Below are positions 4,391 to 27,561 of a stretch of DNA of 64,000 bases, one piece after another (the first letter of the stretch is position 1; each line of letters begins with the position of its first letter). The stretch lies in NCBI RefSeq assembly GCF_014270105.1, contig NZ_JACNMF010000001.1:310001-374000 (forward strand). Reading direction: 5' to 3'. Both the position numbers and the translations under genes were made by a program. Under the pieces are notes generated by a model that saw only the letters and a program-made list of their open reading frames with translations, was not told where the DNA came from and searched no databases. Origin of the DNA: Hyunsoonleella aquatilis (GTDB lineage: Bacteria; Bacteroidota; Bacteroidia; Flavobacteriales; Flavobacteriaceae).

Positions 4391-6175
4391 GTGAAGTACT
4401 TCGTTTTTTCTTTAGTTTTTTTGATAGTTCTAAAATCTTTTGGGCAACGGGATAAGGTAGGGGAAATTATGTTCTACAATACACAGATTGATTCATTAAT
4501 AAAGGTTTTTGATTATAATTCTGCAAGGGAATTACTTCATAGTTCTTCGCAGTTGGCCAATGAAATTCAGGTGGATTCAATTTCGGCAATTGTATATGAA
4601 GCACATGCAAAGTATTACTACTACACAAGCGATTATCAAAAAACTGCTAAATATTTGATAGCATCTGCTGAAATTTATGATAAAATAGGAGCGAAGAACA
4701 AGGCCATTAGAATGTATAACAACATTGCCGCAATTCTCGGGGCACTTGGTCAATATCAAAAAGCACTCAATACCAGAAAAAAAATACTGGAATATAATGA
4801 AATTGAGGATGATTTGGGATTCAAAATAAGTGTATTGTCAAATATTGGATCGGATTACCGAAAGTTAAACCTAAACGATAGTTCGTTTAACTATTTAAAA
4901 AATGCCCTAAAAGTTTCCAAAGAAAATAAATTAAACCCCTTAATAGGCGCCATTTACAAGAAAATCCAAAAAGCATACCTAGAGCTTAATCAATATCATT
5001 TGTCCATAAAGTACGGAGATTCCGTTTTAATTTATAAGGATGAAATTGAAAGACCACTTTATGAAAATTCGATAATTGATGCAGCACAGGCGCTTTTTAA
5101 AATTCAGAATTACGAAGGGGCGCTACAAAAATGTCAACTAGCAGAAACTTTAATAAGCGAAAGTAAAATGCTGATTAATCTGCCTATGGTATACCAGTTG
5201 ATGAGCTCTATTTATGAGCAAAAAAAGCAATACAAAAAGGCGAATAGTTTGTTAAAAAGAAGAATTGTAATTCGCGACAGTTTGTTAAGCGAGGAAAAGC
5301 AAAGACAAATTATTGAGCTAGAGCAGAAATATCAAACAGAAAAAAAGGAGAAAGAAAATTTCAGGTTAAAAAAAGAAAGTGTTGAAAAAGACTTAAAACT
5401 TATCCGGAAAAACAATGTGCTTCTTGTTGTTTCTCTTGTGTTTGGGGTGGTTGTGGCATTCCTTGTTCTTTATCAACTAATTAAGTTTAAATCGAAAAAT
5501 AAGGCGCTTCAAAATGAAATGGATAGACGAGAAGAGGTCGAAAGAAGTTTAGGGGTCGTAAGAGACAATATTGCCAAAGATTTTCACGACGACCTTGGAA
5601 ATAAACTTGCACGAATTACGGTGCTGTCCGATCATATGGTGCAATCTCAAACTACCAAAACCAAAGAAGAAGCGATTTCAGCATTGAAAAAAATCAAATT
5701 AGATTCAGATATATTATACAAAGGTACGAGGGATTTTATGTTCTCCATAAAGGCCAATAGCGACTATGCCGAAGAGCTTTTTACGTATTTATCAGATTTT
5801 GGAGAAGATTTTTTCGAATCCTTTCCTATTGACTTTTTCGTGGAGAAACATTTACACAGGAATATAAAGTTGCCCTATTACTGGAATAGGCAAATTATTA
5901 TGATTTTTAAGGAGGCCATGACAAATACGGCAAAATATTCAAACGCTTCCAAAGCGGTTTTACGGTTAAGTTTGAAAGCAAATTTTTTGGAAATTAGTTT
6001 TGATGATAATGGTGTTGGTTTTAATGAAGAAAGAGTAAGTGACAAAAACGGACTGGCCAATATGAAACTAAGAGCAGATAAAATCTTAGGCCGTTTGGAA
6101 ATTATTTCAGGAAGTGAGGGGACAAAAATTGTGTTTTCTTCACGCATGCCTTTGAATTATAAACTCAACACATGA
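4391..6175 (+). CDS. TPR-domain sensor histidine kinase
   Basis: This 594-residue kinase starts at a GTG; the start is chosen because it gives a clean signal peptide (MKYFVFSLVFLIVLKSFGQ). About 300 periplasmic residues form TPR-like helical repeats, followed by a coiled stretch, one membrane segment (about 343-364), a HisKA_3-type dimerisation helix with the phosphoacceptor H399 in DFHDDLGNKLARI, and an HATPase_c domain (FKEAMTNTAKYSNA, DDNGVGF, GLANMKLRA). It is a NarX/DesK-type kinase. The response regulator starts five bases after its stop, so the two form a cognate pair. The stimulus is unknown; the TPR part suggests sensing of a protein or peptide. Confidence 0.9.
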   Translation: MKYFVFSLVFLIVLKSFGQRDKVGEIMFYNTQIDSLIKVFDYNSARELLHSSSQLANEIQVDSISAIVYEAHAKYYYYTSDYQKTAKYLIASAEIYDKIGAKNKAIRMYNNIAAILGALGQYQKALNTRKKILEYNEIEDDLGFKISVLSNIGSDYRKLNLNDSSFNYLKNALKVSKENKLNPLIGAIYKKIQKAYLELNQYHLSIKYGDSVLIYKDEIERPLYENSIIDAAQALFKIQNYEGALQKCQLAETLISESKMLINLPMVYQLMSSIYEQKKQYKKANSLLKRRIVIRDSLLSEEKQRQIIELEQKYQTEKKEKENFRLKKESVEKDLKLIRKNNVLLVVSLVFGVVVAFLVLYQLIKFKSKNKALQNEMDRREEVERSLGVVRDNIAKDFHDDLGNKLARITVLSDHMVQSQTTKTKEEAISALKKIKLDSDILYKGTRDFMFSIKANSDYAEELFTYLSDFGEDFFESFPIDFFVEKHLHRNIKLPYYWNRQIIMIFKEAMTNTAKYSNASKAVLRLSLKANFLEISFDDNGVGFNEERVSDKNGLANMKLRADKILGRLEIISGSEGTKIVFSSRMPLNYKLNT

Positions 6176-6179
6176 ATGT

Positions 6180-6800
6180 ATGAAAACCAAAGTAATGATA
6201 GTGGAGGACAATGAACCTCTGAATGATCTATTCCGTGATATAATTAATAGTTCCGAAAATTTCAAGGTTTCTGGTTCTTATTTGAATGCCGAAGATACTC
6301 TCAAATTCTTTAAGGACGACATGCCAAATATCGTTTTAATGGATATTGAACTTCCAAAAATGAGCGGTATACAATGTACTAAAGAATTAAAAAAAATCAA
6401 CCCGAATGTTCTAGTTATAATGGTTACGGTTTATGAAAATTCTGCTACAGTTTTTGATGCTTTATGTGCTGGAGCAACAGGGTACTTAACAAAAAATGCC
6501 TCGTCGGAAAAGCTGATAGCTTCTTTAAACGAAGCCCTTGCTGGAGGAGCGCCTATGAGTATAAATATTGCCAAAATGGTGGTACAATCCTTTCAAAAGT
6601 CTCCTGATTCCATATTAACCGAAAGGGAGACTGAGGTACTCAACATGTTAGCGAGAGGTAGTAGTTACAAATCCATTGCTTTAACTTTTGAGATAAGCGT
6701 AAATACCATTAAATATCATATCAAGAATATTTATGATAAACTCCAAGTGCATTGTAAGGAGGATGCTATTGAGGAAGCTTCAAAGCGAAAACTTATTTAG
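6180..6800 (+). CDS. NarL/LuxR-type response regulator
   Basis: The receiver domain occupies residues 1-120, with acidic residues E9-D10, phosphoacceptor D55 in VLMDIELPKMSG and a conserved Lys in YLTKNAS. A LuxR-type helix-turn-helix follows (LTERETEVLNMLARG, then IALTFEISVNTIKYHIKNIYDKL). It is the partner of the kinase just upstream. Three palindromes, in front of the kinase, just behind this gene and in front of the secreted protein at 7166, are its likely binding sites, making it autoregulatory with a short local regulon. That target assignment is inference. Confidence 0.92.
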   Translation: MKTKVMIVEDNEPLNDLFRDIINSSENFKVSGSYLNAEDTLKFFKDDMPNIVLMDIELPKMSGIQCTKELKKINPNVLVIMVTVYENSATVFDALCAGATGYLTKNASSEKLIASLNEALAGGAPMSINIAKMVVQSFQKSPDSILTERETEVLNMLARGSSYKSIALTFEISVNTIKYHIKNIYDKLQVHCKEDAIEEASKRKLI

Positions 6801-17263: not shown

Positions 17264-17289
17264 ATTGCATTTTGTATACAAAATGCAAT
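17264..17289 (+). promoter_or_regulatory. 26-bp perfect palindrome, GntR-family operator
   Basis: The half-site ATTGCATTTTGTA is followed directly by its exact reverse complement. The core TTGTATACAA matches the TNGTnnnACNA type of site bound by FCD/FadR-like GntR regulators. It lies ten bases before the GTG at 17299 of the gntR gene, so it is most likely an autoregulatory and operon operator. A TTG start that would lie inside the palindrome (17272) is therefore rejected as the gene start. Confidence 0.75.
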
Positions 17290-17298
17290 TTCGGAAAA

Positions 17299-17940
17299 GT
17301 GATTGAATATACAGACTTAAGCCGGCCTATTTATAAGCGTTTAAAGGAGATGATCCGAAACGGCGAATTGAGGCAGGGCGAAAAAATAGTGCAGGAAAAG
17401 ATAGCCGAACAGTTAGGCGTAAGCAGAACGCCGTTGATGAAAGCTTTACTAGCCCTTGAGAATGAGTATTTAGTAGAAAGTATCCCCCGCCGCGGTATGT
17501 ACATCAAGACTTTGGACTACAGCCAAATTATCGATATTTATGTATGCAGGGAGGCTTTGGAAGGTATGGCCGCAAGAATTTTGGCTGAAAAAAAGGAGCC
17601 TACCGCAGTTAAAAAACTGAAGGACTGTTTTTCTCCTTTTGTGGGTTTGACCGAAATCGACCAGCAAACTTATGCCGATGCGGATGAGGTATTCCATTCA
17701 CTGTTGATAACACTTACGGGCAACAAACCACTGGATAACATCTACTTTTTCAGCAACATACACGATAAGGTTGTCGGGCACGGCTTGGTGAGGTCGCCAG
17801 AGGAGACCTTGGAAGAACATTTTAATATCATTGCAGCGATTGAGGAAGGGAATGCAGATAGAGCTGAAGAACTAGCAAGAGCACATATCAGTAAATCAAA
17901 AGAATTATTAATAAACCAAAGTAAAAAACAAAGAAAGTGA
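17299..17940 (+). CDS. GntR-family regulator, FCD (FadR-type) subfamily
   Basis: The winged helix is in the first 70 residues (IYKRLKEMIRNGELRQGEK, IAEQLGVSRTPLMKALLALE, VESIPRRGMYIK). A helical FCD ligand domain follows with the metal-binding pattern CREALEG, FHSLLI, LEEHFNII and RAHI. The GTG at 17299 (213 residues) is preferred because an in-frame TTG at 17272 is inside the perfect operator palindrome. It is the first gene of the sugar-acid operon and overlaps the dehydrogenase gene by four bases. FCD regulators usually respond to sugar acids or organic acids, probably the operon's substrate. Confidence 0.9.
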   Translation: MIEYTDLSRPIYKRLKEMIRNGELRQGEKIVQEKIAEQLGVSRTPLMKALLALENEYLVESIPRRGMYIKTLDYSQIIDIYVCREALEGMAARILAEKKEPTAVKKLKDCFSPFVGLTEIDQQTYADADEVFHSLLITLTGNKPLDNIYFFSNIHDKVVGHGLVRSPEETLEEHFNIIAAIEEGNADRAEELARAHISKSKELLINQSKKQRK

Positions 17941-18983
17941 GTAATTACAAAATTGCAGTAGTGCCAGGTGATGGTATTGGTAATGAAATTGTACCCCAAG
18001 GACTGAGAGTTTTAGAGGCCGTGGCCAAAAAGCACAATTTTTCAATCGAAACTGAGGAGTTTGGTTGGGGAGCAGGATATTATTTAAAACACAATCAATT
18101 TATGCCCGATGACGGGATTGAAAAGTTGAGGGCATTTGATGCTGTGTATTTTGGTTCCGTTGGTCTTCCAGCAGTGGACGACACCTTGCCCGCAAAAGAC
18201 TACACCTTTAAGGTGAGAACACATTTTAATCAATATGTGAATCATAGACCTGTGCGCACATATCCAGGCGTAACGAGACCTATTCGTTCAGAAAAACATA
18301 TCGATTTTGTAATTGTAAGAGAGAACAATGAAGGAGAGTTTGTTCAGATGGGTGGGCAATATTTGCCAGATTTTGAAAACGGGATGGGTATTGATACCAG
18401 TGTTTTCACAAGAAAGGGTATTGAACGCGTGGCGCACTATGCGTTTAAGTTGGCCAGAACCAGACGTAACAAAGTTACGCATATTACAAAGTCCAATACT
18501 TTAATCAATAGTTTATCCTACTGGGATAGGGTGATTAAAGAAGTGGCCGAACAATATCCGGATGTAGAACACCAACAGATGTATATCGACAACTCCACGG
18601 CCATGTTCGTACTAAAGCCAGAACAATTTGATGTAGTGTTGACTACAAACTTATTCGGTGACATCTTGAGTGATTTAGGAGGTGCTGTAATGGGAAGCCT
18701 TGGTTTAGGAGGTAGTGGCAATATCAACCCTGAAAAGGAATTTCCATCAATGTTTGAACCGATCCATGGGTCGGCTCCAGATATTGCAGGTCAGAATATT
18801 GCTAATCCTTACGGACAGATTTGGTCTGTGGCCTTAATGCTGGAGCATTTGGGCGAGTCCGAAGCAGCAAACAATATTATGGAGGCTATTGACAAGTCAA
18901 CCTCTTCAGGGGTGTTGACGGTAGATTTGGGCGGCAAAGCCAGTACAACTGACGTTGCCGACGCGGTCATAGCAAACCTTTGA
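17937..18983 (+). CDS. Isocitrate/isopropylmalate dehydrogenase family, tartrate dehydrogenase-like
   Basis: This 348-residue NAD-dependent beta-decarboxylating dehydrogenase is closest in pattern to TtuC/D-malate dehydrogenases (VVPGDGIGNEIVPQG; the substrate Arg cluster in FKVRTHFNQYVNHRPVR; ITKSNTL with K185; the metal-binding Asp residues in FGDILSDLGG; and FEPIHGSAPDIAG). The segment RENNEGEF carries Phe135 where TtuC and isocitrate dehydrogenases have the catalytic Tyr (EGEY). The GTG start at 17937 overlaps the gntR stop. In this operon with a four-carbon acid sugar kinase it may act where PdxA2 acts in the D-threonate and erythronate pathways, oxidising a 4-phospho acid with loss of CO2. 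That substrate is inference. Confidence 0.85.
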   Translation: MSNYKIAVVPGDGIGNEIVPQGLRVLEAVAKKHNFSIETEEFGWGAGYYLKHNQFMPDDGIEKLRAFDAVYFGSVGLPAVDDTLPAKDYTFKVRTHFNQYVNHRPVRTYPGVTRPIRSEKHIDFVIVRENNEGEFVQMGGQYLPDFENGMGIDTSVFTRKGIERVAHYAFKLARTRRNKVTHITKSNTLINSLSYWDRVIKEVAEQYPDVEHQQMYIDNSTAMFVLKPEQFDVVLTTNLFGDILSDLGGAVMGSLGLGGSGNINPEKEFPSMFEPIHGSAPDIAGQNIANPYGQIWSVALMLEHLGESEAANNIMEAIDKSTSSGVLTVDLGGKASTTDVADAVIANL

Positions 18984-18994
18984 TTAGTAGCCAA

Positions 18995-19630
18995 ATGGAT
19001 AGGGTAGTTGATCTAACGATGGCATACCACAACGGTATCAATGGTTTTTCCAAAGAAGTTGCAAAAACCAAAGATAAAGACGGGTGGAATGCCAGTACCC
19101 TATCCTTTTATTCACATGTGGGTACCCACATGGATGCCCCATTTCATTTCAATGTAAGCAACCAGACCGTTGATGAAATCCCTGTGTCAGATTTTATTGG
19201 ACGTGCTTATGTAATTGATGCACGAGAGGTAGAGCCTAAAGGGCTGATTAAAGTAAATCATATTCCTGACGAAGTTCGTGAAAAATTTATCGAGGGCGAT
19301 AGTTTGATTATTTGGACGGAATGGTCCAAACATGCTGGGACTCAAAAGTATAGAGACGATTTGCCGCGAATCAGCGAGGGATTAGCCCAGTGGTGTATCC
19401 AACATAAAGTAAAAATGATTGCGGTGGAACCACCTTCAGTGGCCGATGTAAACAATCTGGATGAGGTGACCAAAATCCATGAGATTCTTCTCGCTGGTGT
19501 GGTGATTATCGAAGGTATTACCAATATTGAAAGTTTAAAATCCAATTGTGTAAAGCTCATTGCATTACCGCTGAAAATAAAAGAAGGGGACGGAGCTCCC
19601 GCACGTGTTATCGCCATTGAAAATTATTGA
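18995..19630 (+). CDS. Cyclase-family metal hydrolase (kynurenine formamidase-like fold)
   Basis: This hydrolase of about 211 residues has the family signature HVGTHMDAPFHF (metal-binding His/Asp) and a late VEPPSVAD segment. An in-frame TTG at 18980 overlaps the upstream stop (TTGA); ATG at 18995 gives the usual MDRVVDLTM start and is preferred. The family hydrolyses amides, lactones and cyclic imides. In this operon it may open a sugar-acid lactone before phosphorylation; this is inference. The gene ends one base into the kinase start codon (TGATG). Confidence 0.85.
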   Translation: MDRVVDLTMAYHNGINGFSKEVAKTKDKDGWNASTLSFYSHVGTHMDAPFHFNVSNQTVDEIPVSDFIGRAYVIDAREVEPKGLIKVNHIPDEVREKFIEGDSLIIWTEWSKHAGTQKYRDDLPRISEGLAQWCIQHKVKMIAVEPPSVADVNNLDEVTKIHEILLAGVVIIEGITNIESLKSNCVKLIALPLKIKEGDGAPARVIAIENY

Positions 19631-21045
19631 TGCTAAAAAGCCTTAAACATATTTTAAGCAATCTTCCCTCTGAAGATTCGAATGATTATCGCTCCGAAAA
19701 CAGGGCGTTGTTTTCCAAATTGGATAAAACCTGTATCGTTATTGATGATGACCCCACTGGGAACCAAACCGTTTATGGCATTCCATTATTGACAGAATGG
19801 AGCATGGACGTCTTTATAAAGGAATTTATTGAGGGCACGCCAGTGTTTTATGTTTTGACAAATTCAAGAAGTTTAACACCGGAAGGCACTTCAAAAATAT
19901 ATGAGGAAATAGCCCAAAATATTTTGAAGGCATCAAAGGTTACTCAAAGAAAGTTCACTATTGTCAGTCGAAGCGATTCCACGTTACGCGGCCATTTTCC
20001 GTTGGAGCCTGAAACTTTGCAGAAATATTTGAATTTAAACGAGGCCATTACCGTATTTATTCCAGTAATGTTTGAGGGCAATCGTGTTACTGTGGAGGAT
20101 GTCCATTATATTAAAAACGGGGATGACCTCACCCCGGTTAATGAAACCCCTTTTGCCCAAGACCATTCTTTTAAATATTCAAATGCAAATTTAAAAGCCT
20201 ATATCGCAGAAAAAACAAATGGCGATATTCAGATTTCTGATGTTTTCTCTTTTTCATTGGAGGAAATTAGGCAATTGGACGTAAACGTCCTTGCTGAAAA
20301 TATTTTGGAAATTCCTGCAAACAGCTACTGTATTTTTAACAGTTTGAATTACTCCGATTTGGATAAAGTATCTCAAGCATTACTAAGAGCAGAGGCTTTG
20401 GGTAAACCAATAGTTTACAGGACTTCAAGTTCTTTCGTGCCATCATATATCGGGTTAGAGCCAAGAGGATTACTAACTTCAAAAGATGTATTTTCAGAAC
20501 ACAACACTAACGGGGGTTTGACAATTGTTGGGTCCTACGTAAAAAAATCTTCAGAACAATTGAGCAATGCCCTTTCTATTTTTCAAAAGGAGAGCATCGT
20601 AGAAGTAGATGTATCGCAAGTACTCTCCACCGAATATGAATCGCATTTGAATGACCTGATTTTGAGAATAGATACTCATATTTCTCAAGGGATGGATGTT
20701 ATCGTTTATACCAGTAGAAAACTGATAACGGGGAATTCCCAGAACGACACAGTCGATATTGCCATTAAGATATCAAACGCTTTGGTAACGCTGGTTAGAG
20801 GCATTTCTATACGCCCAAAATACATCATTGCAAAAGGCGGGATTACATCCCACGATTTGGCAACAAAAGGCCTTGGTATGAAACGATCCAAAGTTTTGGG
20901 GCAAGTACAACCCGGAATTCCCCTCTGGGAAATGGGAGAGGATACCCATTTTCCAAGATTGCCATATATTGTTTTTCCAGGAAATGTTGGGGATGCCGAT
21001 ACTTTAAAAACCATTATAACTAAACTAAAACACCATGTTCAATAA
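19630..21045 (+). CDS. Four-carbon acid sugar kinase family (DUF1537)
   Basis: The kinase of 471 residues has the two-domain DUF1537 layout. The N-terminal domain has IDDDPTGNQTVYGIPLLTEW (about 40-60), VLTNSRSLTPEG and VSRSDSTLRGHFPLE. The C-terminal nucleotide-binding domain has IVGSYVKKSSEQ, YIIAKGGITSHDLATKGLG and FPGNVGD. Known members phosphorylate D-threonate, L-threonate, D-erythronate or 3-oxotetronates at O4. The ATG at 19630 is used; a TTG one codon earlier is also possible. The end overlaps the transporter gene by 11 bases, so the genes are translationally coupled. Confidence 0.9.
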   Translation: MLKSLKHILSNLPSEDSNDYRSENRALFSKLDKTCIVIDDDPTGNQTVYGIPLLTEWSMDVFIKEFIEGTPVFYVLTNSRSLTPEGTSKIYEEIAQNILKASKVTQRKFTIVSRSDSTLRGHFPLEPETLQKYLNLNEAITVFIPVMFEGNRVTVEDVHYIKNGDDLTPVNETPFAQDHSFKYSNANLKAYIAEKTNGDIQISDVFSFSLEEIRQLDVNVLAENILEIPANSYCIFNSLNYSDLDKVSQALLRAEALGKPIVYRTSSSFVPSYIGLEPRGLLTSKDVFSEHNTNGGLTIVGSYVKKSSEQLSNALSIFQKESIVEVDVSQVLSTEYESHLNDLILRIDTHISQGMDVIVYTSRKLITGNSQNDTVDIAIKISNALVTLVRGISIRPKYIIAKGGITSHDLATKGLGMKRSKVLGQVQPGIPLWEMGEDTHFPRLPYIVFPGNVGDADTLKTIITKLKHHVQ

Positions 21046-22291
21046 CTCCAAACGCTATAGGTTTTTCCTTGGCTCATTCTTGATTACTTTGTTGCTTTAC
21101 GTGGACAGGGTATGTATTTCATCCGCTAAGGATTCTATTGCTGGCGACTTAGTTTTGACCGATATTCAAATGGGTTGGGTGCTAAGTGCCTTTGCCCTTG
21201 GGTATGCTTTGTTTCAAGTGCCCGGAGGTGCTTTAGGAGATAAATATGGGGTTAGAAAAGTGTTGACATGGATTATGGTATTGTGGTCCATTTTTACATC
21301 TTTAACAGGGGTGGCGTGGAACTATATTTCCATGCTATTTTTCAGATTTACCTTTGGTGCAGGAGAGGCGGGAGCATTCCCCAATATTTCAAGAGCTGCC
21401 TTCTCATGGATACCGACAAAGGAAAGAGGCCTTTTTCAGGGTATTAACTTTTCTGGATCCAGATTGGGAGCTGCTTTTGCTCTGCCATTGGTGGCCTATC
21501 TTATTGATGCTTGGGGTTGGCGCAATATCTTTTACTTTTTTGGAGCCATTGGGATTATATTCGCTGTTGTCTTTTATTGGGCATTTAGAAATAAACCGGA
21601 AGATCACCCGGGATTATCTGAGGCCGAAAAGGAATATATCGTGAACAATAGGCAACACGCCGTAGAGAAAAAAGGAGGTAATCTTTCAATAGGAACTATT
21701 CTTGGATCAAACAATGTCATATTGGCCATGATACAGTATATCGGAAGCAACTTTATTTTCTTTTTTATGTTGACGTGGTTGTTTCCATATATCAAAGCGA
21801 AGTATGAATTAGGCCTTGTGGCAACTGGTTTTTATGCCATGATGCCTTTGTTGGCGGGTGCATTGGGGAACTGGGTTTCAGGTTTTATGGTAGACAGTAT
21901 TTACAAAACAGGAAAATGGAAGCAGTCCCGACAAATCCCGGCTACTATTGGATTTGTTTTGGTAGTGATAGGCATACTTTCCAGTTTATATATGGATACA
22001 CCTTTGGGTGCGGTATTCTGTTTATCCGTTGCTATTTTTGGAGCAGATATGACCTTGAGCCCATCGTGGTCTTTTTGTATGGATATTGGTGAAGAAAACT
22101 CGGGAAAGGTCTCTGGAATGATGAATATGGCTGGGAATATCGGTGCATTTACAACCGCATTGGCTTTTCCATACCTTCGTGAATGGACCGGAGCCGATGA
22201 GCCTTTTTTCTACGTAGCCGCCGCACTTGGATTTGTAGCCATATTTTGCTGGTACTTTATGAACCCCAATAAAAAATTAAGTGATGCGTAA
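21035..22291 (+). CDS. MFS transporter, ACS (sugar-acid/anion:cation symporter) type
   Basis: This integral membrane protein of 418 residues has about 12 helices. The ACS/hexuronate-galactonate branch is shown by DRVCISSAKDSI in helix 1, GYALFQVPGGALGDKYGVRKV (helix 2 to loop 2-3) and FGAGEAGAFPNISRAAFSWIP. It probably imports the carboxylated sugar used by the operon. It overlaps both neighbours by 8-11 bases, which points to a tightly coupled transcript. Specificity cannot be read from sequence. Confidence 0.9.
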   Translation: MFNNSKRYRFFLGSFLITLLLYVDRVCISSAKDSIAGDLVLTDIQMGWVLSAFALGYALFQVPGGALGDKYGVRKVLTWIMVLWSIFTSLTGVAWNYISMLFFRFTFGAGEAGAFPNISRAAFSWIPTKERGLFQGINFSGSRLGAAFALPLVAYLIDAWGWRNIFYFFGAIGIIFAVVFYWAFRNKPEDHPGLSEAEKEYIVNNRQHAVEKKGGNLSIGTILGSNNVILAMIQYIGSNFIFFFMLTWLFPYIKAKYELGLVATGFYAMMPLLAGALGNWVSGFMVDSIYKTGKWKQSRQIPATIGFVLVVIGILSSLYMDTPLGAVFCLSVAIFGADMTLSPSWSFCMDIGEENSGKVSGMMNMAGNIGAFTTALAFPYLREWTGADEPFFYVAAALGFVAIFCWYFMNPNKKLSDA

Positions 22292-23309
22292 ATTAAAAGG
22301 AGTGGCCATTGGGGCCGGGTATTTTAGTCAGTTTCAGTATCAGGCATGGACTAGAATTCCGGAAGTTGAAATCACGGCACTTTGTAATTCCAACAAAGAA
22401 CGGGCAAAGAGAATCATGGATGCCTATGGTGTAAAAAACCATTATACCGACTATAAGGAGATGATCCTCAAAGAAAAGCCTGATTTTGTGGATATTATTA
22501 CCCCTCCTGAAACGCATTTTGAGATGTGCAAGTTTGCTGCAGATCATGGCGTTCATATTATCTGCCAAAAGCCCATGGCGCCAACTTATGAAGAGTCAGT
22601 GCGCATCGTGGATTACGTTTCGAAGAAGAATGTGCGCTTCGTGGTCCACGAAAATTTCAGATTTCAACCTTGGCACCGGGAGATTAAAAAACTGATTGAA
22701 AATGATGCCGTCGGCGAACTTTTCAACCTTAATTTTAGGTCTCGAATGGGCGATGGATGGGGAGAGGATGCCTACTTATCCCGTCAGCCCTACTTTCGGG
22801 ATTATAAAAAACTATTGATTTATGAAACCGGTGTACATTTTATAGACACTTTCAGATATCATGCTGGGGAGGTGAACAATGTATATGCCATTTTAAAACG
22901 ACTGAACCCCGTCATTAAAGGTGAAGATGCTGGATTAATGGTTTTGAATTTTGAATCGGGAGCAACGGCAGTGTGGGATGCCAACCGATACAACGAGAGC
23001 AATATTGAAAATTTCCGATATACCTTTGGCGAGTACTTGGTGGAAGGTTCAAAGGGCTCTATCCGGTTATATAATGATGGCAAAATTACTGTACAGCATT
23101 TGGGAAAACCTGAAAAAGAGCATCAATATGAGCATCGTAACATTGGTTTCGCAGGAGACTGTTGCTATATCTTTCAACGTGATTTTATCGATAAACTGAT
23201 TTCGGGAGCATCTTTTGAAACCAATGGCCCAAGCTATTTAAAGACATTGAAAATCCAGGAAGCAGCTTATAAATCTGCTGAAACCAATTCACCCATTAAA
23301 ATAATTTAG
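22284..23309 (+). CDS. Gfo/Idh/MocA-family NAD(P)-dependent oxidoreductase
   Basis: The 341-residue enzyme has an N-terminal Rossmann fold (GVAIGAGYFSQFQYQAW), DIITPPETHFEM, and the catalytic Lys of the family in ICQKPMAPT (near residue 96). A C-terminal alpha/beta domain contains HENFRFQPWHREIK and YETGVHFIDTFRYHAGEV. These enzymes oxidise or epimerise sugar hydroxyls. The ATG at 22284 overlaps the transporter stop; a GTG at 22281 is an alternative. Being last in the coupled block, it may convert the imported acid or a related sugar into the kinase substrate. Confidence 0.88.
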   Translation: MRKLKGVAIGAGYFSQFQYQAWTRIPEVEITALCNSNKERAKRIMDAYGVKNHYTDYKEMILKEKPDFVDIITPPETHFEMCKFAADHGVHIICQKPMAPTYEESVRIVDYVSKKNVRFVVHENFRFQPWHREIKKLIENDAVGELFNLNFRSRMGDGWGEDAYLSRQPYFRDYKKLLIYETGVHFIDTFRYHAGEVNNVYAILKRLNPVIKGEDAGLMVLNFESGATAVWDANRYNESNIENFRYTFGEYLVEGSKGSIRLYNDGKITVQHLGKPEKEHQYEHRNIGFAGDCCYIFQRDFIDKLISGASFETNGPSYLKTLKIQEAAYKSAETNSPIKII

Positions 23310-23388
23310 GTTTCAATTTCGTAAAACCTGGTTTTTTGGCTTGCTATTTTTGTAAATTGCATCTTCGTTTTACTTAGATATAACCCTG

Positions 23389-24393
23389 ATGGTCACTTTA
23401 AAACAGCTTGCAAAGGAACTTAATGTTTCAATTTCTACCGTTTCAAAAGCACTTAACGATAGTGAAGAAATAGGTGAGGATACCAGAAAGCGCGTAAAGG
23501 AGCTAGCTGAATTGTATAACTATAAGCCCAACAAGGTAGCGCTAAGTTTAAAGCAAAACAAAACGAAAACGATTGGGGTGATCATCCCGGATATCCTAAA
23601 CCATTTTTTGTCTAAAGTACTTTTTGGGATTGAGCGGGAAGCCAGTAAGCATGGTTATAATATTATTACATGTATCTCCAATGAATCCTTGGAAAAGGAA
23701 AAGGAAAGCCTGGAACTTTTGGCCAATGGGAGCGTGGACGGCTTTATTTTGAGTTTGGCTGAAGAAACCCAAATGAAAAATGAAGTACATCATTTGAGAG
23801 ATACCATAGGGCAGGGATTGCCGATTGTAATGTTTGATAGGGTAGCCCATGACGTCATGTGTGATAAGGTAATTGTGGATGATTTTGAAGCTACGTATAA
23901 TGCCACCAAGAATTTGATTGCCGAAGGGCGAAAACATATTGTTTTTATCAGTAAAATAGATGATATAAGCGTTGGTAAATTAAGGGAAAGAGGCTATAAC
24001 AAAGCAATTTTAGAAGCACAAATGTCGCCTTTGGTTTTAAAAATTAAGAAAGGCGATGATATCCAGCAAAAAATTAGAAAGCTTTTAAAGAAGAATAAAA
24101 CTATTGACGGAGTTGTGGCCGCAGATAGCGCTTCTGGAGTTGTTGCCATTAATATGGCGATAAACCTGAAGAAAAAAGTACCAAAAGATATTTCAGTGGT
24201 TGGTTTTTCGAGTAAAGCTGTATCCAATCACTCGGTACCTAGATTGGCTATTATCAGACAACATGCCAAAAGAATCGGAGCCATGGCAGCCGAGATGCTT
24301 ATTGCGCGTTTAAATAATACTACTGAATCACAGCCTGATTTTTCAACAAAGGTGATAAAAACCAGTTTTGTAAAAAGCGAATCTACCTTATAA
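23389..24393 (+). CDS. LacI-family transcriptional regulator
   Basis: The 334-residue repressor has an N-terminal LacI helix-turn-helix (TLKQLAKELNVSISTVSKAL) and hinge (YNYKPNKVALSLK), followed by a periplasmic-binding-protein-like ligand domain (TIGVIIPDILNHFLSKV, GFILSLAEET, DGVVAADSASGV). It closes the sugar-acid operon, 79 bases after the oxidoreductase, with a TATTTTTG box (near 23345) suggesting its own promoter. Having both a GntR and a LacI regulator in one locus implies two signals control it, for example a sugar and the derived acid. Confidence 0.92.
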   Translation: MVTLKQLAKELNVSISTVSKALNDSEEIGEDTRKRVKELAELYNYKPNKVALSLKQNKTKTIGVIIPDILNHFLSKVLFGIEREASKHGYNIITCISNESLEKEKESLELLANGSVDGFILSLAEETQMKNEVHHLRDTIGQGLPIVMFDRVAHDVMCDKVIVDDFEATYNATKNLIAEGRKHIVFISKIDDISVGKLRERGYNKAILEAQMSPLVLKIKKGDDIQQKIRKLLKKNKTIDGVVAADSASGVVAINMAINLKKKVPKDISVVGFSSKAVSNHSVPRLAIIRQHAKRIGAMAAEMLIARLNNTTESQPDFSTKVIKTSFVKSESTL

Positions 24394-25045: not shown

Positions 25046-26890
25046 TTGAGAATAAAACTTATTCATTTTCTAGTTGTGTTAGGGTGCTGTTATTCCTCAG
25101 CTCAGACAGGTAGCCATTCAGATAAAATAGATTCTATTCAAAATTTTATCCAGAACATACCTAATTCGGACTCACTTCTCATTGCTAAACAGCACTATAA
25201 AATTGCAGAGCTATATAGATTCTCTTCCATTAATGATAGTGCCTATTACTATTATAACAAAGCCGCAAAAGTTTTTAAAAATCGAAAACTTCTGTTCGAA
25301 ACTGCAATCACCCTTTTTGGGCTAACAGTAGTTCAAACTAACAATAAAGATTACACAGGTGCCGAAGTAACCGCATTTGAAGCAATTGATATACTTGAAA
25401 ATCTTCCTCAGAATAATAATGTAAAAAAATACAAGTCGTATATATACAATACATTAGGGATCATATTTGACGAATTAGATTTGTTTGAAGATGCTATTAA
25501 ATATCTAAACCTTTCCCTTGAAATCAAAAAAGGTTTGAATGGAGATTTTGAAAGAAGCAAAGCCCTAACAATCAATAATATTTTGAAGGTGTATCGGCGT
25601 TCTGGACAATTTGATTTGGCCGTTCAAAAATATAATGAAATATATGGCAACAAGGATTTGATTAGAAATCACCCCGACGTTTATGTTTTGGCTCTGGGCA
25701 ATTATGGCAAAACACTATACGAATCAGGTAATCTGGAGCAATTGCCTGGCATATATTTAAGGGCCTTAAGAATTACAGACAGCATCAATGACAGCTACAA
25801 CTCCATCATTTTGCATCAGCATTTGGCCGAGTTTTATAATGACAGAAACAATAAGGATTCTGCGAAATATTATGCCTATAAGGCCAAGGAAATTTCGGAG
25901 GATTATGCCAATGACGATTTATTGAAATCCCTTATGCTACTCTCAAAAATTGAAGAAGGTGAAACGTCAGCAAAGTTCCTCGAGCAGTATGTTAAGCTGA
26001 GCGACAGCCTTCAAAAAGCTGAAAGGGCCATCAGAAATAAATTTGCGAGAATAAGATTTGAAACTCAGCAGATTGAACAGGAAAATATCCGTATCGCCCG
26101 AGAACGCATGTGGTTGATCATTATCTCGGTCATATTATTGGTGGCGGCACTGCTGCTTTATGTGATTATATCTCAACGGGCTAAGAATAAAGAGTTGGAA
26201 TTCAATAGGCAACAACAAGAAACCAATGAAGAAATCTATAATCTGATGCTTGCTCAAAATGATAAAATCGAGGAGGCTAGAGCTCTTGAGAAAAAACGAA
26301 TTTCAGAAGAACTGCATGATGGGGTTTTAGGGCGATTATTCGGAACCCGTTTGAGCTTGGATAGTTTAAACCTGAACCCTTCGGTTGAGGCTATTAAAAC
26401 CCGAGGACAGTATATTGACGAATTGAAGACTATCGAAGAAGATATCCGAAAGGTATCCCACGAGTTGAATACTGATTTTGTTTCAGGTTCAGGGTTTGTG
26501 GACATCATCGAGACACTTGTTGAAACCCAAACAAATGCTTATGCTCTTAAATATGATTTATCACATGACGACGACATTCACTGGGATGGCGTTTCTAACA
26601 AATATAAAATACATGTATATAGAATGCTACAAGAAGCACTGCACAATATTTATAAACATGCAGAAGCGACTAAAGTTGACGTTATTTTTAAATTAAAAAA
26701 TGATGTAATTTGTCTAATAATTAAGGACGACGGGTCTGGATTTGAGGTAAACAAGGCCAAATCTGGGATTGGCTTAAAGAACATGAATTCCAGGATCGGT
26801 GAAGTTGAGGGCAACTTGCATATAGAGTCGGAAAAAGAAAAAGGTACAACAGTAACCATTGAAATACCAACCAAAATAGAAGTAAAATGA
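25046..26890 (+). CDS. TPR-domain sensor histidine kinase (second)
   Basis: This 614-residue kinase starts at TTG 25046 (MRIKLIHFLVVLGCCYSSAQ is a good signal peptide and no ATG fits). The periplasmic part (about 20-350) is TPR-like; a membrane segment lies at about 356-376, a coiled linker follows, then a HisKA_3 helix with H424 in ISEELHDGVLGRLFG and an HATPase_c domain (LQEALHNIYKHAEATK, IKDDGSGFE, GIGLKNMNSRI). It overlaps the response regulator by four bases (ATGA). The architecture is the same as the kinase at 4391, so the two are paralogues with different partners. Confidence 0.92.
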   Translation: MRIKLIHFLVVLGCCYSSAQTGSHSDKIDSIQNFIQNIPNSDSLLIAKQHYKIAELYRFSSINDSAYYYYNKAAKVFKNRKLLFETAITLFGLTVVQTNNKDYTGAEVTAFEAIDILENLPQNNNVKKYKSYIYNTLGIIFDELDLFEDAIKYLNLSLEIKKGLNGDFERSKALTINNILKVYRRSGQFDLAVQKYNEIYGNKDLIRNHPDVYVLALGNYGKTLYESGNLEQLPGIYLRALRITDSINDSYNSIILHQHLAEFYNDRNNKDSAKYYAYKAKEISEDYANDDLLKSLMLLSKIEEGETSAKFLEQYVKLSDSLQKAERAIRNKFARIRFETQQIEQENIRIARERMWLIIISVILLVAALLLYVIISQRAKNKELEFNRQQQETNEEIYNLMLAQNDKIEEARALEKKRISEELHDGVLGRLFGTRLSLDSLNLNPSVEAIKTRGQYIDELKTIEEDIRKVSHELNTDFVSGSGFVDIIETLVETQTNAYALKYDLSHDDDIHWDGVSNKYKIHVYRMLQEALHNIYKHAEATKVDVIFKLKNDVICLIIKDDGSGFEVNKAKSGIGLKNMNSRIGEVEGNLHIESEKEKGTTVTIEIPTKIEVK

Positions 26891-27561
26891 CAGAACACAT
26901 CAAAATTTTAATGATTGATGATCACCCAATGATTATTGAGGGGTATCAAAATACATTGTTGTTTACCAAGAAAGAAAATCAGGAACTGAGTATCCATATT
27001 GCTAACAATTGCGATGAGGCCATAATATTTATGGATAAGTCCGTCTCCAATGGTTTGCCTTATGATATGTTATTTGTAGACATAAGCCTACCCCCCTCTT
27101 CCGACGGGAAAATGAGTTCTGGGGAAGACTTGGCAGAATATGCCCGAAAGGTATTGCCAGATGCCAAAATCGTAATTCTTACCATGTTCAACGAATCTTT
27201 CAGGATTCACAACATTATGAAAAATATCGATCCCGAAGGTTTTTTGATAAAAAGTGATTTAACCTCCAGCGAGCTAGCCAGTGCTTTTCAGGCCGTTTTG
27301 AATAATCCACCATTTTATAGTGGTACTGTAAATAGTTTTATCAGGAAATCCATTACCAGCGATATAGTTATCGACGATAGAAACAGAAAAATTTTGCACT
27401 TGCTGTCCCAGGGAATCAAAACCAAAAGCTTGGCGTCCCACTTGGATATTTCTTTAAGTGCCGTTGAAAAGCGCAAAAAGCAATTAAAGGAGATTTTTTC
27501 GGTTGAGGACGGAAAGGATGAAACCTTACTTAAAGAAGCCCGTGACAAAGGGTTTATTTAG
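26887..27561 (+). CDS. LuxR-type response regulator (second)
   Basis: The receiver domain is in residues 1-130 with DD at 11-12 and phosphoacceptor D65 in LFVDISLPP; an insert (SSDGKMSSGEDLAEYARK) is typical of this flavobacterial branch. The C-terminal helix-turn-helix (DRNRKILHLLSQGIKTKSLA, LDISLSAVEKRKKQLKEIF) is a diverged LuxR domain. It is translationally coupled to the kinase gene. No copy of the CTACC palindrome is near, so its targets should differ from those of the regulator at 6180. Confidence 0.9.
   Translation: MTEHIKILMIDDHPMIIEGYQNTLLFTKKENQELSIHIANNCDEAIIFMDKSVSNGLPYDMLFVDISLPPSSDGKMSSGEDLAEYARKVLPDAKIVILTMFNESFRIHNIMKNIDPEGFLIKSDLTSSELASAFQAVLNNPPFYSGTVNSFIRKSITSDIVIDDRNRKILHLLSQGIKTKSLASHLDISLSAVEKRKKQLKEIFSVEDGKDETLLKEARDKGFI

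Follow-up and report, generated by a model that had tools for sequence, protein, structure and literature searches.

A conserved, probable sugar-acid operon of Hyunsoonleella aquatilis joins a DUF1537 kinase to an Iso_dh-family dehydrogenase with phenylalanine for tyrosine

Introduction

Can a dehydrogenase of the isocitrate/isopropylmalate family (Pfam Iso_dh) stand in for PdxA2 beside a DUF1537 kinase in the breakdown of a sugar acid? The question is raised by an operon of Hyunsoonleella aquatilis that lies in a stretch of 64,000 nucleotides (the window: contig NZ_JACNMF010000001.1, positions 310,001 to 374,000 of the forward strand). A preliminary description, made from the letters alone, had seen there a DUF1537 kinase (here KIN), an Iso_dh enzyme (IDH-F), a cyclase-fold hydrolase (CYC), a carrier (MFS) and a Gfo/Idh dehydrogenase (GFO), and had proposed a route of import, oxidation or lactone opening, phosphorylation and oxidative decarboxylation to dihydroxyacetone phosphate, with a TtuC-like enzyme in the position of PdxA2. 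The model for such a route is the D-threonate pathway, which we take to consist of the kinase DtnK and PdxA2. We find that this conserved pathway variant is real and that the genes had been read correctly, while the pathway is supported in part; the operon very probably breaks down a sugar acid. No description of this gene set was found in the open-licence literature, as far as the searched texts extend.

Results

Seven open reading frames, all on the + strand, span window positions 17272-24393 in the order GntR, IDH, CYC, KIN, MFS, GFO, LacI. They are listed here together with a hairpin that lies downstream.

17272..17940, + strand: GntR/FCD-type regulator (Pfam GntR and FCD), adjoining the set upstream in 9 of 15 family genomes
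17937..18983, + strand: IDH-F, Iso_dh-family dehydrogenase with Phe for the usual Tyr (Pfam Iso_dh, 314 bits; TIGR02089, 471.5)
18980..19630, + strand: CYC, cyclase-family metal hydrolase, probably a lactonase (PF04199, 100 bits against a cut-off of 23.1)
19627..21045, + strand: KIN, DUF1537 kinase (Pfam SBD_N and NBD_C; tree and neighbours)
21035..22291, + strand: MFS carrier, nearest to the anion:cation symporter type (MFS_1, 194 bits)
22281..23309, + strand: GFO, Gfo/Idh/MocA dehydrogenase (Pfam GFO_IDH_MocA; nearest solved relative 5uhw)
23389..24393, + strand: LacI-family regulator (Pfam LacI and Peripla_BP), in the same place in loci L025 and L040
24956..24982, + strand: terminator-like hairpin past LacI, an 11-pair stem with a T run, a consensus match only

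The open reading frames and a Pfam scan agree with the gene content given in the preliminary description, and its remark that the set holds no PdxA2 or aldolase was borne out, the scan having found neither a PdxA nor an aldolase gene among the seven. The set starts at the first start codon, 17272, rather than at 17264. Successive genes from GntR to GFO do overlap, by 4, 4, 4, 11 and 11 bases when measured with the first possible start codons, so the range is 4-11 and not 1-11 bases. LacI begins 79 bases past GFO, and terminator-type sites in that stretch number 11 against 6.4 expected. The best NCBIfam subfamily of the carrier is TIGR00893 (D-galactonate transporter type; 246 bits, under the cut-off of 395), and KIN is the sole PF17042 match in the genome.

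Seventeen of the 199 genomes searched in the family, Flavobacteriaceae, match the kinase, 15 of them near full length, and the order IDH-CYC-KIN-MFS-GFO is kept in all 15 (the dehydrogenase of G051 being divided between two reading frames); G134 and G159 have weak kinase matches and no set at those loci. A broader scan compared the kinase alignment with named genomes and kept the best 80 loci, in two of which the kinase frame was not located. All five genes are present in 17 of these 80; L042 and L067 duplicate genomes of the first, 199-genome sample. Parts of the set are carried by L048, L055, L075 and L050, and contig ends cut the first three but not L050. The set extends to Planctomycetota (L048, L055, L060) and Verrucomicrobiota (L050, L057, L075); L057 and L060 have all five genes in changed order, and the order also differs in the partial L055 and L075. 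The set also occurs in two more Bacteroidota genomes, G259 and G442, the latter with its kinase divided between two frames, and a GFO search of 395 Bacteroidota genomes at a strict cut-off gave six matches, including the window genome. Since the order is kept in 15/15 family genomes and the set recurs in Planctomycetota and Verrucomicrobiota, the five-gene association is not chance, and the genes form one functional unit and one pathway. The view of the preliminary description, which had argued for one pathway from the overlaps, is supported.

IDH-F is 48% identical to E. coli DmlA, and PF00180 is its only Pfam match; the PdxA family (PF04166) gave none. It passes the cut-off of the tartrate dehydrogenase model TIGR02089 by about 1 bit (471.5 vs 470.4). 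In the alignment it keeps the three Arg, the Lys and the three Asp of the family active site, whose roles there we assume; the three Arg presumably hold a malate-like dicarboxylate. The residue of IDH-F that aligns with Tyr145 of E. coli LeuB is Phe, whereas DmlA, LeuB and the ordinary tartrate dehydrogenase of L139 have Tyr, and we take the Tyr common to DmlA and LeuB to be catalytic. To call the enzyme simply TtuC-like therefore falls short: it is like TtuC/DmlA-type tartrate/D-malate dehydrogenases in overall identity and in its Arg triad, Lys and Asp, and unlike them in this Phe, in a changed substrate loop and in operon context.

The distribution of Phe was followed in a tree of 49 rows. 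L042 and L067, being identical to L030 and L034, are left out of it, as are the split gene of L025 and a fragment from L083; L159 is entered twice, so that the 9 Tyr rows of the tree stand for 8 genes. Phe is present in 32/32 KIN-locus rows, 5/5 rows from loci with the kinase OtnK and the aldolase OtnC, and three others (L121, L138, L140). The Phe rows make up two clades, one of 30 rows with support 100/97 and one of 10 rows with 90/76, and the well-supported branches require at least two Tyr/Phe changes. If Tyr is ancestral, Phe appears to have arisen twice; the count alone also allows the reverse direction. There are exceptions to a simple Phe rule: L138 has Phe yet no such kinase among its listed neighbours, and L159 and L160 have Tyr beside a cluster of OiaK, RuBisCO-like and ApnO genes. 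In these two Variovorax plasmids a weakly GarR-like gene also accompanies the Tyr-bearing Iso_dh gene close to the OiaK-, RuBisCO-like- and ApnO-like genes.

A second difference lies in the loop before the first substrate Arg, where 30/32 main-type KIN-set rows (28/30 distinct) have Lys or Arg, the exceptions being L053 and L154, and 5/5 OtnC-linked IDH-F rows have Thr. This pattern was noted before L157 and L162 were examined. L057 and L060, of the other type, have Lys and Arg in the loop at a different alignment position, the two types being aligned with a gap.

The motif H-x-GTHMDAPxHF of CYC, which we take to be its metal site, is invariant in 14/14 aligned rows. Other clusters with GFO and IDH-F fill this slot differently. 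Plasmids of Marinovum and Sulfitobacter combine IDH-F with GFO (41% and 40% identical), a metallo-beta-lactamase-fold protein and carriers of the TCT or TRAP type, and the Sulfitobacter plasmid additionally has OtnK (NCBIfam 498 vs 350) and OtnC (300 vs 250). About 15 kb of the Bacteroidota genome G538 hold MFS (59%), GFO (53%), a DUF5060 hydrolase (43%), an SMP-30/gluconolactonase-family protein, IDH-F, OtnK (618 vs 350) and OtnC (328 vs 250), with no KIN or CYC match within 44 kb. On rhizobial and agrobacterial plasmids (L134, L135, L162) IDH-F has OtnK and OtnC as direct or close neighbours, identified by record annotation in L134 and L135 and by BLAST in L162; no GFO is listed or matched in these three loci, and in its place L134 and L162 have an Epimerase-type dehydrogenase and L135 an oxidoreductase. 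Across the clusters, proteins of three unrelated families occur in the CYC slot and several kinds in that of the carrier, and the kinase is either KIN or OtnK. Because sister sets with GFO and the Phe enzyme use other lactonase-type proteins, CYC is probably a lactonase, as its family name and this slot exchange suggest; because they use OtnK and OtnC, the end product is probably dihydroxyacetone phosphate. The exchangeable slots suggest that a lactone is formed and opened before C4 oxo- or phospho-acid chemistry follows. Lactone opening and the end product, two elements of the route first proposed, gain support in this indirect way.

KIN itself scores 51.8 with the D-threonate kinase model for DtnK (NF047819, cut-off 450), and the models for OtnK (NF043035) and OiaK gave no match at E 0.001. 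KIN-type kinases also occur in the Bacillota loci L095, L101, L104, L112, L114, L115 and L118, together with PdxA-like and GntP-like genes; five of the seven have a GarR-like gene as well.

The preliminary description had named a pdxA2 or aldolase gene elsewhere in the genome as bearing on its proposal, and both were looked for. The sole PdxA of the window genome is biosynthetic by score (336 vs 290 for pdxA, 188 vs 583 for D-threonate 4-phosphate dehydrogenase) and was rejected as a PdxA2. A RuBisCO-like decarboxylase was likewise rejected, PF00016 having 0 matches in this genome. A 2-OtnC-like class II aldolase, searched for with the neighbour of a KIN-type kinase in Rhodococcus, is present in one of the 15 set genomes (G169, E 5.5e-29); it was not found in the other 14, where the best matches have E 3e-7 to 1e-10 and, where listed, are frames of 357-359 amino acids. 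The window genome has one class II F_bP_aldolase, in a frame of 359 amino acids.

Aldolase_II domains were matched four times in the window genome, each time within C15:301-316 kb and never in an OtnC-sized frame. One protein there is a RhaD-type aldolase by model score. Another is a double-domain class II aldolase of 429 amino acids (L141), whose best NCBIfam model is OtnC at 178 against a cut-off of 250, a score taken on the window genome's copy only. The double-domain aldolase co-occurs with the set (9/15 set genomes, the window genome and eight more, vs 7/184 others; Fisher p 4e-8), and we think that it marks life style. It is probably not the missing OtnC: it is below the cut-off, six of the 15 set genomes do without it, and it lies beside sugar isomerase- and sugar kinase-like genes (identified by eye), about 13 kb from the RhaD-type gene. 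The region as a whole (G000:C15:301000-319000, L147) is a sugar utilisation cluster with the RhaD-type and the 429-amino-acid double-domain aldolases, and a frame of 773 amino acids with Aldolase_II lies at C15:310 kb.

The best solved relative of GFO is 5uhw (167 bits, next best 74), which is also the best Foldseek match (template modelling score 0.89, 30% identity) of its AlphaFold model (predicted local distance difference test, pLDDT, 92.7). The title of 5uhw names an oxidoreductase of Agrobacterium radiobacter with NAD and magnesium and gives no more specific function; we take it to be the D-apiose dehydrogenase ApsD. A D-apiose pathway with a RuBisCO-like enzyme is described for A. radiobacter K84 in PMC6302742. 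A Roseibium homologue of GFO belongs to the same cluster as DUF1537 kinase, RuBisCO-like and ApnO-type genes, and a Sinorhizobium homologue clusters with an ApnO-type gene; PMC11747546 reports such gene content in a strain grown on D-apiose. The motif N-x-x-I-x-GED is invariant in 25/25 aligned GFO rows and is found in 5uhw and in the Sinorhizobium apiose-type cluster, and a stricter form of it fails to match Roseibium and some of the set rows. In the GFO tree two ApsD-type rows fall outside (support 93, with two very long outgroup rows).

A DUF5060 hydrolase is encoded in 15/36 set loci (14 without a duplicate), and none adjoins the set at the window locus. All five DUF5060 members that were scanned have Collagen_bind_2; the Apiosidase cut-off is passed by less than 1 bit in L050 and L060 and not passed in L026, L075 and L155. 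BT_1012, the first structure of that Pfam family (Apiosidase), has the same C-terminal domain according to PMC4032388. Because GFO is nearest to 5uhw and an apiosidase-like neighbour is present in some loci, the sequence comparisons suggest an apiose-like or other branched C4/C5 sugar acid as substrate; the former reason also makes it possible that the substrate is something other than a plain C4 acid. The Arg triad and the carriers would suit a hypothetical branched sugar acid that leads to a tartrate-like diacid.

Several further observations concern the neighbourhood of the set. Two pairs of genes for a tetratricopeptide sensor-kinase-like protein and a response regulator flank the region, at window positions 4391-6800 (domain-scanned) and 25046-27561 (judged from the translation alone). 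In L040, the closest relative, genes for DUF2264, GH88-like and DUF4955 proteins lie ahead of the set (L040:402-7594), as does a gene that clusters with a sulfatase of L035; these neighbours suggest a polysaccharide locus. DUF6797 proteins are encoded near the set in three distant genomes (L033:1-2792, L050:4686-7391, L155:11105-13441), those of L033 and L050 with a cytochrome c domain, and might serve sugar oxidation outside the cytoplasm, ahead of import.

Discussion

Where in the pathway does IDH-F act? The computations show directly which genes form the set and that it is conserved, that IDH-F keeps the catalytic residues other than the Tyr, which is Phe, and that sister clusters exchange single steps; from these results we infer the reactions, step order and end product of a kinase-first route, to which we give a probability of about 0.37. 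The MFS carrier would import a sugar acid or an acid-like sugar, GFO would oxidise its ring form to a lactone, CYC would open the lactone to the acid, and KIN would phosphorylate the terminal hydroxyl of that acid. IDH-F, in the slot held by PdxA2 in D-threonate pathways, would then oxidatively decarboxylate the phosphorylated acid to dihydroxyacetone phosphate. This order is supported by the lack of a 2-OtnC-like class II aldolase in 14/15 set genomes and of an Aldolase_II match in an OtnC-sized frame in the window genome, so that no recognised enzyme for a separate decarboxylation was seen. Like DtnK with PdxA2, the operon would combine a DUF1537 kinase and a decarboxylating NAD-dependent dehydrogenase to form dihydroxyacetone phosphate; unlike that pair, its dehydrogenase belongs to Iso_dh (PF00180) and not PdxA (PF04166), its kinase is distant from DtnK (52 vs 450), and it has extra GFO and lactonase-type steps. 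The basic loop residue of IDH-F is a weak hint of a phosphorylated substrate. Because the loop argument proved weak on checking, the probability of the kinase-first order was lowered from 0.42 to 0.37. That IDH-F takes PdxA2's place is plausible; it may act after the kinase, although relatives of KIN adjoin enzymes of a class that oxidises first.

A number of points weigh against the kinase-first order. The first group concerns the loop: E. coli LeuB also has Arg at this position though its substrate has no phosphate, the basic residue is absent from L053 and L154, Thr also occurs in rows without OtnC (L121, L140, L136, L137, L159-L161), and the comparison of the two IDH-F types crosses an alignment gap. 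A structure model of IDH-F from 14 sequences had a pLDDT of 52 and was not used. As to the substrate, a tetrose would be unusual for GFO, and an anion carrier is a poor fit to a neutral sugar. The set genomes may decarboxylate through an unrecognised enzyme, and nine of the 15 have the double-domain aldolase. In OtnK/OtnC clusters, furthermore, IDH-F presumably acts before the kinase. The neighbours of KIN-subfamily kinases include GarR-like enzymes and a GntP-type symporter, in some loci also F_bP_aldolase or PdxA, and the kinase of L063 adjoins a short-chain dehydrogenase/reductase that scores as D-erythronate dehydrogenase (NF043036, 469 vs 325). L064 and L066 have an unscored neighbour of the same length, and a quick kinase tree places the L063 clade near the set kinases (support 93, the join not firm).

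Oxidation before phosphorylation is about as likely as the reverse. IDH-F would then take the place of LtnD/DenD and give a 2-oxo- or 3-oxo-tetronate, which KIN would phosphorylate and a decarboxylase encoded elsewhere would convert to dihydroxyacetone phosphate; in a variant, IDH-F would oxidatively decarboxylate a branched C5 diacid, for example hydroxymethyl-tartrate. This order is favoured by the neighbours of the KIN subfamily (GarR/LtnD-like or DenD-type enzymes, in some loci F_bP_aldolase) and by the three-step Arthrobacter route for L-threonate and D-erythronate, in which LtnD, 2-OtnK and the F_bP_aldolase-type 2-OtnC act, as set out in PMC12540250. Because kinases of the same subfamily adjoin enzymes of a class that oxidises first, IDH-F may replace LtnD/DenD rather than PdxA2. 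The Arthrobacter plasmid locus L165 has such a set, with a KIN-type kinase (35%) and GarR-like, GntP-like and F_bP_aldolase genes. LtnD and F_bP_aldolase keep company with kinase relatives such as L165, L077, L096, L098 and L103, but not with KIN in the window operon, which lacks DenD as well and has an Iso_dh-type enzyme, a cyclase-family hydrolase and GFO.

The oxidation-first order is also consistent with the position of IDH-F next to OtnK/OtnC, where the annotated genes shown for L134, L135 and L123 include no isomerase, and with the kept Arg triad, which fits a diacid and the anion carrier. The double-domain aldolase, with its sub-cut-off OtnC match, would offer a decarboxylase in nine of the 15 set genomes, but it is absent from the other six and stands in the window genome among sugar isomerase- and kinase-like genes, and a 2-OtnC-like gene is lacking from 14/15 set genomes and from the operon. 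The four-step L-threonate route (LtnD, OtnI, OtnK, OtnC) is echoed in the OtnK and OtnC of the sister clusters with GFO and IDH-F, whereas in the window KIN does not match OtnK and the set is without OtnC, LtnD and OtnI.

We also considered, as a doubtful proposition, that the Iso_dh family twice entered an undescribed pathway that degrades a branched, apiose-like sugar acid, losing the catalytic Tyr on both occasions and replacing PdxA2 in KIN sets or LtnD/DenD in sets with OtnK and OtnC. The basic loop residue may in that case mark a phosphorylated as against a free acid substrate.

It is quite unlikely that the operon degrades plain D-apiose, with GFO as D-apiose dehydrogenase, CYC as apionolactonase and IDH-F as an oxidoisomerase/decarboxylase on D-apionate or its phosphate, replacing ApnO and the RuBisCO-like protein. 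The closeness of GFO to 5uhw in sequence and fold (if 5uhw is ApsD, as we assume), the shared N-x-x-I-x-GED motif and the DUF5060 hydrolases that pass the Apiosidase cut-off in L050 and L060 would speak for it, and the operon does resemble the oxidative D-apiose pathway (ApsD, ApnL, ApnO, OiaK, RuBisCO-like protein) in its Gfo/Idh aldose dehydrogenase, lactonase step and DUF1537 kinase, with apiosidase-like hydrolases near some sets. It differs in having anion-type carriers and a kinase that is not OiaK by model (that of G538, too, reaches only 146 vs 700 with the OiaK model), and in lacking both an ApnO-type domain in the set and a RuBisCO-like match in the genome; ApsD-type rows fall outside in the GFO tree, the stricter GFO motif is not shared by all, and the window set has no DUF5060 neighbour. 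An ordinary tartrate or D-malate pathway among functionally unrelated neighbours, to which the narrowly passed tartrate dehydrogenase cut-off would point, is very unlikely, because the association with KIN, GFO, CYC and MFS is conserved in three phyla and 32/32 linked copies compared have Phe for Tyr.

The operon would bring a further type of dehydrogenase into the DUF1537 acid-sugar pathways. Phe for Tyr is in addition a sequence marker that may separate a sugar-acid group from enzymes labelled as tartrate or isopropylmalate dehydrogenases, and it makes a family-wide annotation error testable. The two clades, in which the same catalytic residue differs and most sampled members lie in sugar-acid clusters, offer a natural experiment. 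For marine ecology, the operon may bring to light a sugar acid which algal or plant material supplies to Bacteroidota, Planctomycetota and Verrucomicrobiota.

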